Of a stretch of DNA of 64,000 nt, positions 3,601-22,087 are shown in pieces. The DNA lies in NCBI GenBank assembly GCA_003313425.1, contig NHZP01000002.1:1426001-1490000 (forward strand), given 5' to 3'. The translations under genes and the position numbers were made by a program. Source of the DNA: Pseudopyrenochaeta lycopersici (Eukaryota > Ascomycota > Dothideomycetes > Pleosporales > Pseudopyrenochaetaceae). The stretch's first letter is position 1, and each line of letters opens with the position of its first letter. Under the pieces are notes generated by a model. That model made no database searches. It saw only the letters and a list, made by a program, of their open reading frames with translations, and had not been told where the DNA came from.

Positions 3601-3796
3601 CCATTTGCCGCCATAGAGACTCTCTTTAATGGGCACAGAACCTAACTGATGTAGCGGCAATTAACGATACCTACGCTATACGAGAACTTTAACACCTGCT
3701 GCCACCCAAGGTCCTGCAAGTGACTAAACGCCCAAAACTATCTTCTTCCACACGAAAAGGCTCGGCAGACTCGGCGGGTCTCCAAGGCTCAACGCT
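696..3796. repeat. Gene-free tract with AT-rich, RIP-like relic sequence
   Basis: No open frame here looks coding; the longest (for example 2004-2231) have no recognisable composition. Bases about 1560-1830 are strikingly TpA-rich with many short TATA/CTATA/TTAG words. This is the look of repeats mutated C-to-T by repeat-induced point mutation in Pezizomycotina. The flanks (about 2240-3500) have a more normal base mix but many in-frame stops in all frames, consistent with an old transposon remnant, though I could not identify the family. No terminal inverted repeats were found by eye. Confidence 0.45.
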
Positions 3797-5074
3797 CTAG
3801 GTTGACGCGGAAGGCACAGCGCAATCAGCCGACAGCAAAGGCTCCACATCCACCTTCTCCCAACCTTTGACAATAGCATCCTTCAAATGTGGGTATCGTT
3901 TCTCTGCCCAGTCGATCGTAAGAGCAGCGAAATGAGGGAAATCGCTGTCTGGCCCCAGCCTCGGATCAGTCATTGCTTGAAACCAGACTTGGCCTACCCC
4001 TTGCAAAGGCACGCCGCCAGCATTCATGGCAGCCGTGTAAAATGCCAGGTTAGGAATGCCCGAGTAGTGATGTACGCCGCCATTGTCGTACTTGAGTTTC
4101 GCCAGTTTTCGAGGGGGGCGTGGGTAACGAACGGCTTGCGGCGGGTTTGTCGACCTTGGGTCTGCAAGGGAGCGTAGAAAGGGTTGAATCGAGTCTGTTT
4201 CTTCGAGTTCGAAGACAATATTATCAGGACGTTCGGCAGGACGAATGGGATATTGGTTAGGTTGTTTCGTTATCTTTCTGTTGTAGTAGTCACGTGCGTC
4301 GGGGTGTACTGCCATCCTTCTGCTGAAGTAGTCTTGTTCCTCGGGGCGAGTCTTTCCTGAGAAGATTGATTCACCAATAGTCCACGACTGGGTTTTTTGG
4401 ACGTTGGACTTGGTTACATATTGATTGTAGAGCACGCCAAAGACATCTGCAAGGTGTTCACCAAGTGCACCTGGTTCATCGCGGTACCGCAAACCGCTTG
4501 TTTGCGAGATGATTCCATGTGTTAGCTCATGCGCAAGTACGTCGCCGGCAATGTTGAAAGAAATCATGTCGTTCAACTCCCCCCAAAGCCCCGACCCCGA
4601 TCCCGATCCCGATCCTAGTATGACCTGTGAGCCATTCCAATATGCATTCAGGCATTTCCGTCCATATCTAAGGGTTACATGTAGCTGGTTTCCATTATTA
4701 TCCAAGAGCTTCCAGTTGAAGGCTTCTTCGAAGAAACGGTAGATACCTCGCAATTCATGGTCGACCCAATTTCTCGGCTCATCGAATGCTGGCCCACCTG
4801 GCAGATCGTAACTGTCAAGCGCATTCCAGATGAAGCATTCGAAGCCATGAGCGGGTGGTGGCTTGCCATTGAATGTGACTGGGACCGACTTGCCATTGAT
4901 TGTTCCAGTGATATTGTTGTTGATTACAGATTTCTCCAACAAATCCCTTCCTTCCTCAATAGTATTTTTAGCGGCCTCGCGGAGCTCGGAGCTTACCTCT
5001 TCGTTTTCAGCAATGCTGTGAAGATAGTATTCCGGGACGATGGAGCACCAGGAAGAAGCTTGGCCTGATTCCAT
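3797..5074 (-). CDS. Thermolysin-family (M4) metallopeptidase, protealysin-like
   Basis: Single exon, 425 aa, ATG at 5074. A zinc endopeptidase of family M4: HELTH at residues 182-186 gives two zinc ligands and the general base Glu183, Glu206 in GALGEH is the third ligand, and His335 in DNGGVHH (330-336) matches the catalytic histidine. The N-terminus has no signal peptide. It carries a short Ile-Val-Pro-x-x-x-Leu segment (12-18) like the small propeptide of bacterial protealysins, not the long FTP/PepSY propeptide of secreted thermolysins. Oddities: Gly205 replaces the usual Asn before the third ligand; a (Gly-Ser)n run at 154-162 comes from a hexanucleotide repeat; a Pro-rich insertion lies at about 270-328. 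It is head-to-head with a metzincin gene. The family is mainly bacterial and sporadic in fungi, so horizontal origin is an inference. Confidence 0.88.
   Translation of the reverse strand: MESGQASSWCSIVPEYYLHSIAENEEVSSELREAAKNTIEEGRDLLEKSVINNNITGTINGKSVPVTFNGKPPPAHGFECFIWNALDSYDLPGGPAFDEPRNWVDHELRGIYRFFEEAFNWKLLDNNGNQLHVTLRYGRKCLNAYWNGSQVILGSGSGSGSGLWGELNDMISFNIAGDVLAHELTHGIISQTSGLRYRDEPGALGEHLADVFGVLYNQYVTKSNVQKTQSWTIGESIFSGKTRPEEQDYFSRRMAVHPDARDYYNRKITKQPNQYPIRPAERPDNIVFELEETDSIQPFLRSLADPRSTNPPQAVRYPRPPRKLAKLKYDNGGVHHYSGIPNLAFYTAAMNAGGVPLQGVGQVWFQAMTDPRLGPDSDFPHFAALTIDWAEKRYPHLKDAIVKGWEKVDVEPLLSADCAVPSAST
4591..4616. repeat. CCGATC hexanucleotide microsatellite inside the M4 gene
   Basis: Four to five near-perfect copies of a 6-bp unit. 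Read on the minus strand they encode the alternating Gly-Ser run at residues 154-162 of the M4 peptidase. The unit length is a multiple of three, so copy-number change would keep the frame. Confidence 0.8.
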
Positions 5075-5494: not shown

Positions 5495-6355
5495 TTGAAA
5501 GGATTAATCAAATCTGATTCTACCTTGAAGTTCAATCTGGATCAATTACCTGAAGGCTGGTGTGGCACTAGCGTCAAGCGGGCAGTTCAAGCTCTGAGCG
5601 AAGGTAGAACGAATCCACGAGCGACCATGATGGCTGGAAACAACCAAGGACGCAACGGCACATACATATGCATCACGCAGGAAGACAATCGACCGGTCTG
5701 GTGGGGACCTGAGGAAGACTCAGACGCACCGCCTGCCATCGTCACGGGCTTGGGACCAATCGTGCCACGCTGGGATATATCCCAGGCAAACACCACGCTC
5801 CAATACTTTGTTGACATTAGCACTTTCACAGCACCAGAAGAAGCCGAGTTCGCTGCTCAGGAACTACAGCAAGCCGCCGACAAGTGGAACAGTCTTGGCC
5901 TCGGTCTCAGCATCTCACGGGCTGCCTCGCGAGCAAGCGCCAATTTCGCCCTGATATATGAAGTCAACAAAGGAAACATGGTGGGACGCCGCTATGCCGA
6001 AGCCTTCTTTCCGCACGAAGTGGACCAGCATCTAATTGTCACCGACTTTGCCCTAAGCACACAACAGAGGGGTATTTTGAAGAATGTGTTTCTGCACGAG
6101 CTAGGCCATGTGCTCGGTCTCAGACATGAATTCGCGCTTGATGCGCATCAGCAGCTCCAGATGGGAGTTCAGGAGGACGCCGACGGTGCGGTACAATTCA
6201 TGCAGAGAAATCCCATCTCGGTGATGTCTTATGCTTCGCCGCCGACTATCCAGCAAACGGATATAGATGGGGTTCAGGCATTTTACAAATTGAAGCTCGG
6301 CGACAAGATCGATGGAAGTCCAGTCACGGACTTTAAACCACAACTTTTGCCATAG
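5495..6355 (+). CDS. Metzincin metallopeptidase (matrixin-like), start unresolved
   Basis: The open frame encodes 286 residues. HELGHVLGLRH at 201-211 is the full metzincin zinc motif (His201, Glu202, His205, His211), and Ser-Val-Met-Ser-Tyr at 242-246 is the Met-turn. The downstream Asp-Ile-Asp-Gly-Val-Gln segment (256-261) resembles matrixins, so I place it near M10/M12 rather than M4. Start problem: the frame opens right after a TGA at 5486 and its first start-like codon is TTG (5495). The first ATG is at 5627 (codon 45). The residues before that ATG look coding, so an upstream exon is likely. No signal peptide is visible in what can be read. It shares its promoter region with the M4 gene, suggesting joint expression. 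Confidence 0.8.
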   Translation: MKGLIKSDSTLKFNLDQLPEGWCGTSVKRAVQALSEGRTNPRATMMAGNNQGRNGTYICITQEDNRPVWWGPEEDSDAPPAIVTGLGPIVPRWDISQANTTLQYFVDISTFTAPEEAEFAAQELQQAADKWNSLGLGLSISRAASRASANFALIYEVNKGNMVGRRYAEAFFPHEVDQHLIVTDFALSTQQRGILKNVFLHELGHVLGLRHEFALDAHQQLQMGVQEDADGAVQFMQRNPISVMSYASPPTIQQTDIDGVQAFYKLKLGDKIDGSPVTDFKPQLLP

Positions 6356-6743
6356 AATTGAGGTTACTAGGATAAGTACATGGAGAGGTCTATAGTTATC
6401 AATACCTATCGTTCGTTACTGCCGCTCGTAATGACCCGAGATCCTCAAAGCTTCTTAGTATATCCGACCTAATCGATCGTCGGACTTTAGCTTCGTCATC
6501 AATTCTAAGCAAGGATTGAATATGATCGTGCGAGAGAACGGCCCTAAAAAACAATGTTAAGGCTGCGTTGACGAACTTCTATACGTCCTTCTGCAGGCAT
6601 TATTACTCGCCTCATCGAGTGCATAAGCAGCTTGTTCAATGATTAGATTCTCACGCATCCTCTTAAGTAGACCCTGATATTCAGAAAAGAAACCTGCCTC
6701 AAATCGTGTATTCGGCGTTAAAGAGTCATTATATGCTACACTT
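6356..6743. other. Intergenic, no feature seen
   Basis: 388 bp between the 3' ends of the metzincin and aminotransferase genes (convergent). Presumably both 3' UTRs. Nothing else recognised. Confidence 0.5.
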
Positions 6744-8590
6744 TCAACACATGCCAGTCAATACAGCCATGCCAGCGACGTGATCTGCACCAGCTTCTTC
6801 CTCTTCCTCGAGCAACTTGTCAATCTTCTCCTTCTTCTTGATTCTCCAGAAAGCCTGTGCACCATCCGCAAATCTCTTACTGACACTGCCAACTTCCTCC
6901 GCCGGACAAGCCGCAAAGCACAAGCGGTAGCAGTTGAAGCTGTCTTTCTCGCGAATTTCTGGTGTAGCGGCGAACATGGCACCCGGAGCAACCAAGCAGA
7001 GGTATGGCTTGAGAGTCCAAAGCACCCAGAGTGCTTGTGCGAGGCGTGGTGCTGGGACAACCTTGGCGAGAGGATGGGAGGTAAAGTCGAAACGTACCCA
7101 AACGAACATGCCACCAAGTGGGCGGACAAAGGAGTAGATTTGTGTCTTCTCGACAACAGCCCATTCATCCTCTTCGTCGACGAGCGACCTGCGACGCCCG
7201 GCTTTCACAAGTTCTTTGCCCGCGTCGAGCGCATCACACATGGTCTGCATTCGGCGCTCGTAGTTACCCCTCAAGCCTTCAAGCCAGCGCACCCAGCCGT
7301 CAACTTTCCAGCCACTTCCATCTGCAGCTCCGCCTCGTCCTGGATCTTGCGAGCCTTGCGGACCCATGATTAATTCAGCGATCATCGACTGCACAAAACC
7401 AGAGGGTTGTTGTGTTGACGTTTCTGTGATACGAAGAATGCGCTCCACGAGGGCGGGCTGCGCAGTAATCCAGCCCAGACGGCATCCTGGTGCTACTGTC
7501 TTGGAAAAAGTATCGAGGCGGACGACGCGTCCTTGGTAGTCGACGCTGAGATAGGAGGGGATCAGGCTGTCGAGGAATTCGAAGCCCGAGCCTTTGGTGT
7601 TGCGTGTTGTGACTGTGCTGGTTGACGATGAAGGATATTGGAGGTACCAGTATGGATCATCTTCGACAATGACAACGTCGTACTTTACGCAGAGAGCGTA
7701 GATTTCAATTCTTCGTGCCACGGACAGGGTGCCTGATGTGGGGTTCTGACCAATGGTGACGGTATACATGAGATGGGGTCGTCGACCCTTGGTGAAGTCC
7801 CAGTTCTCCAAGACGTCTTCGAGGCCACCTGGGCCCTTTGCCAGCATGCCTTCGTCGTCAATTGCTACGGGTGCAATGTTGAAGCCGCGTGGAGTCGCAG
7901 TCTGTATGGCGTTCATGTAGGCATAAGTCTCACAAAGCAGTCCTGGTCTCTCGTCGACGGGGTCATGGTCGGCTGACCACTCATTGCTGAGTGCCTGCAA
8001 CGTCTTGGAAAAGCCATCTGTCGAGCCACATGTCAAGATGATTTCGGGGCCGTCTTTGTAGGGCACGAATGGATGCAGATTTTCCCTTGTAAATTGCCGA
8101 ATGAACCAGTACAGCGCGGGGTATCCCTGGGCCTGTCCATACTGCAGCGCCGACTTCAGGTCAATCATGCGCAGCGGATCCGGCACGCTGGAGTCTTTTG
8201 GTACTACGAGGCGCGAGGCGGGCAATTGGTCATCTTTTTTCTTTGAGAGGGAAACATTTGCAAGTTGCGCTGTCGGAGGGTCGTCGACAGGTGGGTCGAG
8301 GGGCTTGTTGGGCGTTGGCTGCCATCGATTTGGGTGTGCGACTTTGGCTTCGAGGGTGTCGTAGGGAAAGTACTTGTCGTTAGGCAGCCCTTATCTGGGG
8401 TAAGCGATGGCAAGAAAGCCGAAACGGAATCAGGCTCACCTCCAGCAAGTTGGGCGATGCCGGGGATCTGGAAATACTTGTAGAACTTCTTTACGCTTGA
8501 CGCCTCTCGTGCTTTGGTGCTACGTGACAGATAGTGGGAGAGATCAATCGGGTCTGGCAAGGAACTGGTGTCGGTGGTACAAGGCGCCAT
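6744..8590 (-). CDS. Aromatic amino acid / 2-aminoadipate aminotransferase (ARO8-like)
   Basis: Two exons: 8440-8590 and 6744-8389, with a 50-nt intron at 8390-8439 (GT-AG). The joined frame gives 598 aa. Removing the intron restores the family segment LAGGLPN followed by YFPYDT, which supports the splice. It is a PLP-dependent fold-type I class I/II aminotransferase. The N-terminal SHYLSR-type start is typical of fungal ARO8 relatives. The PLP lysine is Lys347 in the TFSKTVAPG segment, and the DDPYWYLQYP segment is the conserved cofactor-pocket region. ARO8 enzymes transaminate aromatic amino acids and 2-aminoadipate (lysine pathway); exact substrate is not readable. It is longer than yeast Aro8 because of a Ser/Thr-rich insert and an acidic C-terminal helix (Glu-rich near residue 580). 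Confidence 0.9.
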
Positions 8591-19056: not shown

Positions 19057-19950
19057 ATGGCTTCCTTCTCAGGAAAAGTTGTAAGTCAATAGTCCGCGTT
19101 TCGTATGTCATCTTGCCTGGACTTACAAGTTTCTAGATTGCCATTACCGGCGCTGCATCTGGCATGGGCCTAGCAACAGCAAAGCTTCTTGCTTCCCAAG
19201 GGGCACATGTATCTCTGGCAGATGTCAACTCGGAAGCTGCCAAAGCAGCAGCAGAGTCGCTTCATGATGGTCTTGATAATCATATGTACAAGGTCGTGGA
19301 CGTCAGAGTTGGTAATGCTGTAACTGCTTGGATAGAAGCTACCCTGGAAAGATTCGGAAAACTGGACGGTGCAGTAAATATGGCAGGCATAATTGCAAAA
19401 GCGAAGCCAGTTGTCGATGTTGAAGATGAGGACTGGGACCTGATGTTTGCCGTTAATACAAGGGGCGTTTTTAACTGCTTGAAGGCGCAAATCAAAGCTA
19501 TGACTGGAAGTGGATGCAGTATTGTGAGTTCATCTTGACCAGCTAAAAAATTTGAACTAACAGACAGCAGGTCTCTGCTGCAAGTGTTTTTGGACAATTT
19601 GGCGCACCAGGAAACGCAGCTTATTGCGCAAGCAAAGCCGCTGTTGCAGCGTTGAGCAAGACTGCAGCGAAGGAAAATCCACATATCAGAATCAACTGTG
19701 TAGCACCAGGTAAGAATTCAGTCTTCTCGTACTCGGTATACTCTGGCTGATGATAACTCAAGGCTCGGTGAATACTCCTATGTCCCAAGGGGAAGATCCT
19801 GAACATGTAAAAGAAGGTCTGCAAGTGACCGTCATGAAAAGGAGGGCTGAGCCTGTAGAAATAGCCAACGTCATTGCTTTCTTACTGAGCGAACAAGCTT
19901 CATTCATAACAGGGGCAGTGTATAATGTTGATGGTGGATGGGTTTGCTAG
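19057..19950 (+). CDS. Short-chain dehydrogenase/reductase, four exons
   Basis: Exons 19057-19080, 19137-19523, 19571-19709 and 19763-19950; introns of 56, 47 and 53 nt, all GT-AG. The joined frame gives 245 aa, the normal classical SDR length. TGAASGMG at 12-19 binds the cofactor; NMAG at 89-92; Tyr155 and Lys159 (YCASK) are catalytic; the C-terminus ends in a VDGGW motif. Asp37 after the second strand suggests NAD(H). The tiny first exon (8 codons) is needed to supply a start and the first strand. The 3' end is only 53 bp from the convergent UstYa-like gene. Substrate unknown. Confidence 0.88.
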
Positions 19951-20003: not shown

Positions 20004-20875
20004 CTACAAAGTTGACTCCTTTTTCGGACGGTGAAACTCTGGATTCAGTCCCACACTTCTCTCGCTCGCCCACTCATGTATAGGCTCCCAGCTAACGCAC
20101 TGCCGCTTCGCTTTACTTGTAAGGTGCTGCTTCTTCCTCGTATTCTCATCCCATTCAAACGTGTACAAAGCTGTATTTGCCTGGCACATCAAGCTCATAC
20201 GTATTGTTTCGATACAATGCCTTGCGTGGCCTCTCTCGTACTCGCGATCCTGTGACGTCAGATTCGCAAAGTACACATCGTCGTACATATGCCAATATAG
20301 ACGACGCAGGCAATGTAGTTCATGGAACACGCCGAGACTGGCGAGATAGCCACCCTGAACGAGTTCGAGGCGTTCAGAGGGGTCTTCGTTTGTTTGTTTT
20401 AATTCGGCGGAGGAGGCATGGATGAGCATTGGAGCAACGAGCTCTGCCCATGCTGCGTTCACCTCAGTAGATGGTTCCTTGGAGAACACGGAGTGTCCTT
20501 TGGGGTAGACATTCTGGATGGTAGGATACATGAGCTGTGATATTGGGGCTACAATAATCTTTAGTCTTAGTTCTGCTAATAGCGAAGTTGGAATTGTAGT
20601 GGCTTACAGTACGGTAAGTGTAGTCTTGAAGCAGTGGAGAGTCGAGGTATTATGAGAAGAGCGGTCACTACCAAGCTGTATAGAACTAGCACAGCAGGAA
20701 GCCAGCTTCGCTTCAATACTTCTGGTCTGCAAATTGACTCTCCTCCACTTTGTTGAGATTCTGTGTCTTTGTCGTCGTCACACTCCTCGCTGAGCAAGCG
20801 CTTCTGCTCCATTACCATTGTGGGTTCGCGACCAAAATCGCTGCCATGCGATCGAGTTGCAAGAATACTATTCAT
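20004..20875 (-). CDS. UstYa-like oxidase (DUF3328)
   Basis: Exons 20608-20875 and 20004-20548, with a 59-nt intron (20549-20607); 270 aa. A cytosolic N-terminus is followed by one membrane helix (about 58-77) and a lumenal domain with the two diagnostic HxxHC motifs: HELHC at 165-169 and HARHC at 197-201. The Glu-Val-Asn-x-Ala-Trp segment (118-123) before them is also family-typical. UstYa proteins carry out oxidative cyclisation or related oxidations of ribosomal peptides in the ustiloxin, asperipin-2a, phomopsin and related pathways, and also occur in cyclochlorotine synthesis. Splicing joins an RLHLPY end to a SPISQ start, matching the Tyr-Ser-Pro segment common after the helix in this family. 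It is divergent from a Kex2-repeat precursor-like gene 800 bp away. Confidence 0.93.
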
Positions 20876-21673
20876 TGTGTTGAATTCTCACAGCAGGTTC
20901 TTGACCAGCGGAGTTGTGGAAACTCGGATCCGAAATCCGGAGAGGCGAGGTTGAGGCGGTGCTGTTGTCGGGCTAAGCCTACGACACAGTAGAGAGAATG
21001 CGTAGACACGTACGCCTACGCTGGTGACACACAGCCTGTTAAATAACCTGTACTCGTTCTCCGAGGAAGTCACTTCATGCACCAATTGATGCTTTCGCGA
21101 GCTGAAGGTAATACAAATGTCTTGGACCAAAAGTGGTCAGGTCGGCGTCAATATGAACACACCATGTTCCTCATTGCCACGGTACTTGTTGACTCGTGTT
21201 GGCCAACTTACTCGTCTAGAACGGTCGCCGAATGGACAGGCCAGTCTAAAGCTCGTATGATTCCATGCCAGATCTTAGCGCGATCTTAGGCTGTTCGGAC
21301 ACCGACGAGCTGTGTTGCCTAATGAGGAATGCGGCACGTGTACGCTACATCCCGTACGAAGGGCCGAAATTACTAGGCCTGCTACCTACTTTGACGGTAT
21401 ATACTGTTTTTGGTAGTAGAGTCTGTCATGAATATTGAGTACTTCGCGGAGCCGGCGCGAAGAAGTAAGATTGCACCGCTGGGCTCAACATATATCTACA
21501 CCCAGAAGTCACAACGGTCTGTATTCAGAAGCCGTCTGCAAAATCCAATCATTGTTCTCACCTTGAAAGGCATATATTCAAGTCAAGTTCATTGCCTCTA
21601 CCATCAATTCGTGTTCTCAAACAACGCCTCTTCGCTACACAGCTCCAATTTCGTGTTAGCCACATCTGCCACC
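20876..21673. promoter_or_regulatory. Divergent promoter, UstYa-like gene / repeat-peptide precursor
   Basis: 798 bp between the two starts. TATA-like elements lie at 21398-21403 and about 21491-21495, roughly 270 and 180 bp before the precursor ATG. The sequence just before that ATG is C/A/T-rich leader. A frame open through this leader (from about 21410) would add an N-terminus that hides the signal peptide, so I treat it as untranslated. Confidence 0.5.
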
Positions 21674-22087
21674 ATGCGCGCCTCAACGTTCGCCATCGCA
21701 TCTTTCCTCTTCGCAGCGTCTGTAATCGCACTTCCTGTTCGTAAGTCACTTCTGCTACCTCAATTAACCAATCAGTGCAAATACTTATCCAAAATAGCCG
21801 GAGATAAATGCACCCTCGACATTGGTGCAAATAAAGCCGTCAAGACAACTGACGATACTTTCGACACAGCTTGCTTCAAGACGAAGCGCGGTGATCCAGA
21901 AGAAGAAATTGCTGTGTGCCCAACAAGTGTTGACGGCAGCGTTGATCCAGATATCATGGACACTGCATGCTTCAAGGTCAAGCGTCGTGATGTTCCACCA
22001 GAGAAGATTGATGCGTGCGAGGTAGCTACAGCAGGAAGTGCGAGCATTCTTGACACCGCCTGTTTCAAGAGGCATGTCAAGGTGTAG
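21674..22087 (+). CDS. Secreted three-repeat Kex2-processed protein, candidate RiPP precursor
   Basis: Exons 21674-21740 and 21798-22087 (57-nt intron), 118 aa. A signal peptide covers about residues 1-20. Then come three units, each with one upstream Cys and a conserved end: DTACFKTKR (45-53), DTACFKVKRR (77-86) and DTACFKRHVKV (108-118). Lys-Arg after units 1 and 2 is a Kex2 site. Each unit has exactly two cysteines (27/48, 63/80, 96/111). Signal peptide, near-identical short repeats and KR sites define fungal KEP proteins, which include the precursors of ustiloxin, phomopsin, asperipin and epichloecyclin. With a UstYa gene next door I infer a dikaritin-type RiPP precursor; Phe would be the only aromatic residue for crosslinking. 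An alternative is a set of disulfide-closed secreted peptides. No known core with this sequence comes to mind. Confidence 0.82.
   Translation: MRASTFAIASFLFAASVIALPVRKSLLLPQLTNQCKYLSKIAGDKCTLDIGANKAVKTTDDTFDTACFKTKRGDPEEEIAVCPTSVDGSVDPDIMDTACFKVKRRDVPPEKIDACEVATAGSASILDTACFKRHVKV
21800..22084 (+). repeat. Three coding repeats of the KEP precursor
   Basis: Unit 1 is 21800-21889, unit 2 is 21890-21985 and unit 3 is 21986-22084 (about 90-99 nt each). The repeats are diverged except for the hexapeptide DTACFK. Its three DNA copies differ only at third codon positions (Thr ACA/ACT/ACC, Ala GCT/GCA/GCC, Cys TGC/TGC/TGT). So the peptide, not the DNA, is conserved. Confidence 0.85.

Follow-up and report, generated by a model that had tools for sequence, protein, structure and literature searches.

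A putative precursor gene and its three cores

The 64,000-nucleotide stretch of Pseudopyrenochaeta lycopersici DNA analyzed here, referred to as the window, contains a small gene whose product carries the hexapeptide DTACFK three times. This raises the question of whether the gene encodes the precursor of a fungal RiPP and, if so, which residues of the core could be joined. An initial annotation had proposed such a precursor on the basis of three DTACFK units, and all three copies were recovered at the positions given below.

21674-22087, + strand: precursor gene, 118 aa, two exons (splice model)
21674..21740, + strand: exon 1, with a signal-peptide-like N terminus (MRASTFAIASFLFAASVIALPV) (splice model; hydropathy; Pyrenochaeta relative of the same length and frame)
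21741..21797, + strand: intron, 57 bases, GT..AG (splice model; the relative aligns gaplessly over the junction)
21798..22087, + strand: exon 2, three spacer-core units and the stop codon (splice model)
21863..21880, + strand: core copy 1, DTACFK, then T-KR (DNA pattern and translation)
21884..21889, + strand: Lys-Arg pair 1, residues 52-53, predicted Kex2 site (sequence; cleavage predicted)
21959..21976, + strand: core copy 2, DTACFK, then V-KR (DNA pattern and translation)
21980..21985, + strand: Lys-Arg pair 2, residues 84-85, with one more Arg behind it, predicted Kex2 site (sequence; cleavage predicted)
22052..22069, + strand: core copy 3, DTACFK (DNA pattern and translation)
22067..22072, + strand: Lys-Arg pair 3, residues 113-114, overlapping core copy 3 at its final Lys (sequence; cleavage predicted)

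After Arg2, the N terminus of the precursor contains an uncharged hydrophobic run of 22 residues, as judged from hydropathy only. From its sequence, the precursor is probably a secreted protein from which short peptides are cut. A homologue search with the 118-aa protein was run against approximately 5.8 billion proteins with a method that depends on 5-residue words in common. It returned a single relative, namely, a hypothetical protein of Pyrenochaeta sp. MPI-SDFR-AT-0127 (118 aa, 87% identity, no gaps). Its equal length and its gapless alignment across the exon junction support the start, the intron, and the end of the gene model. The relative also contains three repeats, and all three of its cores are identical to those of the window precursor. 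A second search, with residues 128-225 of the 225-aa reading frame, was aimed at relatives of greater length and at metagenome frames that retain the intron; none of its 92 candidates reached E <= 10. Neither search yielded a precursor relative in the genera that have UstYa relatives, among them Clathrospora, Westerdykella, Sporormia, and Amniculicola, although small genes often are unannotated.

The threefold occurrence of DTACFK is not a matter of chance. The DNA pattern GACACNGCNTGYTTCAAG, which does not cover other Asp, Phe, and Lys codons, matched the three cores and no other site in the 62.7-Mb genome. Of the window's stop-to-stop segments, 645 have 50 aa or more, and within these DTACFK was the sole hexamer present three times, and none of 200,000 shuffles of the precursor's mature part contained any hexamer three times. 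Three of the six core codons vary between the copies without changing the amino acid (ACA/ACT/ACC, GCT/GCA/GCC, and TGC/TGC/TGT), and the units share 1/23, 1/22, and 2/22 positions beyond the core. Because the copies differ in synonymous codons and their spacers are unrelated, we infer that the core has been kept by selection on the peptide and not by recent DNA duplication.

The tails behind the core Phe read K-T-KR, K-V-KR, and KR (the first tail of the Pyrenochaeta relative is K-L-KR), and cuts at the Lys-Arg pairs would divide the precursor into four fragments, the last of which is HVKV. The initial annotation was right about the Lys-Arg sites that follow units 1 and 2 but missed the third pair. 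Since this third pair takes its Lys from the end of the third DTACFK, the common core product probably ends at Phe (DTACF), and an ACF end generated by a cut at the third pair appears more likely than the third product ending in ACFKRHVKV that had been put forward. The residue that precedes the core Asp is Phe, Met, or Leu. Besides the core Cys, each unit has one Cys in its spacer (C27, C63, and C96) and thus two in total. The core had also been described as containing Cys and Phe but no Tyr, and this extends further, as the whole precursor is devoid of both Tyr and Trp.

A signal-like N terminus, a repeated peptide, and Lys-Arg sites are common to alpha-type mating pheromone precursors as well. 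That the gene is such a precursor is nevertheless extremely improbable: the pheromone motif is absent from its core, its Lys-Arg pairs are not followed by the XA/XP Ste13 signature, and the identity is contradicted by the genome's own gene of this type on another contig, C6. The product of the latter gene (L045, G000:C6, ~1178176-1178195) is a precursor of the Pleosporales type and carries PYG(L/V)PIG seven times, together with KRDA/KREA signatures. The two-Cys-type pheromone pattern gave no match. The available excerpt of PMC6339444 gives PYG(L/M)P(I/V)G as the Pleosporales alpha-pheromone peptide motif, and that of PMC7329392 states that DUF3328 genes, to which the UstYa genes belong, accompany almost no pheromone genes, which also argues against a pheromone in view of the gene described below.

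An adjacent, divergent UstYa-family gene

The start of a UstYa-family gene lies approximately 0.8 kb from the precursor gene, and the two genes are adjacent and divergent (head-to-head).

20004..20875, - strand: UstYa-family (DUF3328) gene, exons 20875-20608 and 20548-20004, 270 aa from the first ATG (PF11807; splice model)
20310..20324, - strand: HxxHC motif 1, HELHC, residues 165-169 (alignment)
20214..20228, - strand: HxxHC motif 2, HARHC, residues 197-201 (alignment)

The encoded protein matched Pfam PF11807 with an E value of 1.1e-41. The proposal of a RiPP precursor, which had been made without citing this gene, receives strong support from this neighbor. In the 62.7-Mb genome, the gene ranked at the top of at least 28 family matches listed, which, as a lower bound, were grouped into 19 loci. 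With these 19 loci, and the match count being a lower bound, a randomly chosen place would be expected to have 0.0018 UstYa loci within 3 kb.

The His and Cys residues of both HxxHC motifs were invariant in 9/9 aligned UstYa sequences, comprising 8 of the 12 matches and the window's own sequence; fragments, partial frames, and near-duplicates were left out. A hydrophobic stretch, read by eye, is located close to the N terminus of the protein. Since the relatives begin at Met20, the true start of the gene may lie near 20818. No Pyrenochaeta protein was present among the 12 UstYa homologue matches, and the Pyrenochaeta UstYa gene may be mis-annotated or absent. The AlphaFold model of exon 2, for which 10 of the 12 matches were used in the alignment, was poor (mean pLDDT 54.7) and placed the two HxxHC motifs in predicted helices 66-82 and 93-113 (block mean pLDDT 61-75 and 72). 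The search for a solved relative of the UstYa protein gave a best E value of 0.31 by sequence and none at E <= 0.1 in a profile search. As candidate shared regulator sites, CGGNNCCG palindromes were uninformative: 17 are present in the window, of which those at 20925 and 21447 are located between the two genes.

Taken together, a UstYa/DUF3328 gene is found beside the precursor gene and repeated cores are found beside Kex2-type sites, both of which are features of dikaritins. We consider it likely that the locus is a dikaritin-type RiPP locus composed of a Tyr-free, triple-DTACFK precursor and one divergent UstYa gene.

Conservation between the two species bears on a different explanation, namely, that the three ~30-residue two-Cys peptides act as secreted signals or effectors, either linear or closed by a disulfide, and that the UstYa gene serves another pathway. 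The two species differ at one position over residues 54-118, and spacers 2 and 3, which are nearly invariant, may thus serve for recognition or belong to the product. Within residues 24-53 (window 21801-21889), the unit 1 spacer shows many interspecies differences. The comparison of the cores with the rest of the protein did not reveal a significant excess of conservation (Fisher p of 0.12 for the whole protein and 0.074 for unit 1). That spacers 2 and 3 are conserved like the cores and that each unit contains exactly two Cys is what such secreted peptides would show; furthermore, according to the available excerpt of PMC7329392, 22% of the KEP genes have a DUF3328 gene nearby and 78% have none. 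However, the gene adjacent to this precursor does belong to the UstYa family, and the units have just six residues in common. In addition, the two Cys are spaced differently in each unit (21, 17, and 15 residues apart), so that a single disulfide fold is not suggested. We thus regard unmodified peptides as unlikely and retain the dikaritin-type reading.

Genes flanking the precursor-UstYa pair

The segment 13167-19950 of the window, contiguous with the UstYa gene, encodes an SDR, an OTEMO-like Baeyer-Villiger monooxygenase, a Zn2Cys6 regulator, and a second SDR. These proteins could tailor the crosslinked peptide or control its production as members of a larger RiPP cluster, which would widen the dikaritin-type reading and not be its opposite, and flavin monooxygenases are indeed contained in the ustiloxin cluster. 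However, the closest solved structure of the monooxygenase is OTEMO, a Baeyer-Villiger monooxygenase (E 1e-145), and the SDR at 19057-19950, the one of the two that was compared, is nearest to levodione reductase and cyclohexanol dehydrogenase. The combination of a dehydrogenase and a Baeyer-Villiger enzyme fits ring-ketone catabolism. On sequence similarity, the gene set is likely ring-ketone catabolic, and its membership in a RiPP cluster appears improbable. Because the neighboring genes look like ring-ketone catabolism, the RiPP unit was taken as the precursor and the UstYa gene. At a greater distance, the window encodes a thermolysin-type (M4) metallopeptidase (3797-5074, - strand) and, as its divergent neighbor, a weaker M57/matrixin-like metallopeptidase (5495-6355, + strand).

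Repeat proteins at other UstYa loci

The 19 UstYa loci (approximately 10 kb each) and the rest of the window were scanned for repeat proteins. Repeat proteins with dibasic sites were detected at 4 of the 19 loci, namely, the window locus, L029, L037, and L043, and the same scan did not detect any in the rest of the window. L040, a simple repeat of GERR, was left out of this count; the four rows of L029, which represent one repeat region in several frames, were counted once. At L029 (G000:C15:321900-331700), the repeat protein encoded at ~6879-7760 near a UstYa gene contains about nine HHRGRGKKNNRRE units and is likely another KEP, belonging to the di-histidine kind (excerpt of PMC7329392). L037 (G000:C3:723600-733500) contains, beside UstYa matches, five GVDLLAPRIG units at ~6204-6740, four of them followed by YKR, and is likely a Tyr-containing KEP. 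Another likely KEP is found at L043 (G000:C1:2253300-2263100), where three MKADY units, two of them followed by RR, are located at ~3672-3905 beside a UstYa match. The Kex2-type P domain is present in one gene of the genome.

Proposed maturation and core chemistry

In the dikaritin-type reading, Kex2 would cut the precursor after the three Lys-Arg pairs, and a carboxypeptidase would remove the basic tails, so that the remaining core, (F/M/L)DTACF, would have Phe at its C-terminal end. The UstYa protein is predicted to carry a dicopper center in the secretory lumen and to crosslink each core by an oxidative bond; the Baeyer-Villiger monooxygenase, the SDRs, and the regulator would not be required. 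Because the precursor is without Tyr and Trp, the most plausible positions for this bond would be Phe, which victorin also uses, or the Cys sulfur, and, in the absence of Tyr, the crosslink would have to differ from the Tyr bonds of most known relatives. In the available excerpt of PMC12435403, the DUF3328 enzyme CctR is described as a dicopper, oxygen-dependent membrane enzyme with its catalytic part placed in the lumen, and UstYa enzymes are described as dicopper oxidases recently shown to act on inert C-H bonds. DUF3328 proteins also work in polyketide and nonribosomal pathways (excerpt of PMC12048977).

The case for a new chemistry, which the initial annotation had deduced from the Tyr-free core, is weaker than stated there. 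Victorin is closed through Phe, from its C-terminal Phe to an internal Leu (excerpt of PMC9233826), and Tyr is present in 65.6% of the repeats located near DUF3328 genes, so that the 34.4% without it form a sizeable minority beside UstYa genes (excerpt of PMC7329392). The unusual part is the Cys-containing core. A limited literature search, which is a weak test, did not yield a Cys-core dikaritin by title or abstract, and DTACFK was absent from the searched literature, in which only ACFKR occurs, in papers unrelated by title. To our knowledge, there is no characterized dikaritin with Cys in its core. As a speculative proposal, which we hold with considerable doubt, one UstYa copper oxidase would close the Tyr- and Trp-free core, either by a thioether between the Cys sulfur and an unactivated core carbon or by coupling of Phe to a neighboring side chain. 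The product would then be the first Cys-core UstYa RiPP, and its precursor would represent a core-only-repeat class that repeat-based surveys would miss. A Cys-Phe core without Tyr and Trp, accompanied by apparently one UstYa gene, would constitute a two-gene system for directly testing which residues UstYa enzymes can join. More generally, precursors with diverged spacers could escape repeat-based RiPP surveys.

Comparison with known fungal RiPPs and KEPs

The window precursor resembles KEPs in that it is a small protein with a signal-like N terminus and three repeated cores beside dibasic sites. According to the available excerpt of PMC7329392, KEPs were required to have three or more tandem repeats, each 8 aa or longer, between Kex2 sites, and DUF3328 genes were most frequent at the position next to KEP genes in 1,461 fungal strains. 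The longest word common to the three units is DTACFK, and its 6 aa fall short of this length, a comparison that refers to the final rule only.

Asperipin-2a likewise combines a precursor with a single DUF3328 protein (excerpt of PMC7329392), but its ether between Tyr-O and Phe C-beta, which is made by UstY enzymes (excerpt of PMC12186524), needs a Tyr partner that the window precursor does not offer. Ustiloxin and phomopsin share with the locus the repeated cores, the dibasic sites, and the nearby UstYa gene, and the counterpart of their signal peptide is a signal-like N terminus. In their cores (YAIG/YVIG/YVIP), ring closure joins Tyr to Ile and involves a tyrosinase (excerpt of PMC7329392). 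This junction of a core Tyr to Ile has no counterpart in the Tyr-free window precursor. Among the scanned proteins around the precursor gene, which represent part of the window's frames, there was no match to a tyrosinase.

The victorin core is Tyr-free with Phe at its end, and the victorin cluster contains several UstYa genes and other enzymes. The precursor of victorin, from Cochliobolus victoriae, is comparable to the window precursor in having multiple cores and in being likely processed by Kex2, and its product is closed via Phe and not Tyr (excerpt of PMC9233826). Victorin is, however, chlorinated and heavily modified according to the same excerpt, whereas the locus described here has one UstYa gene and a core in which Cys is located next to Phe.
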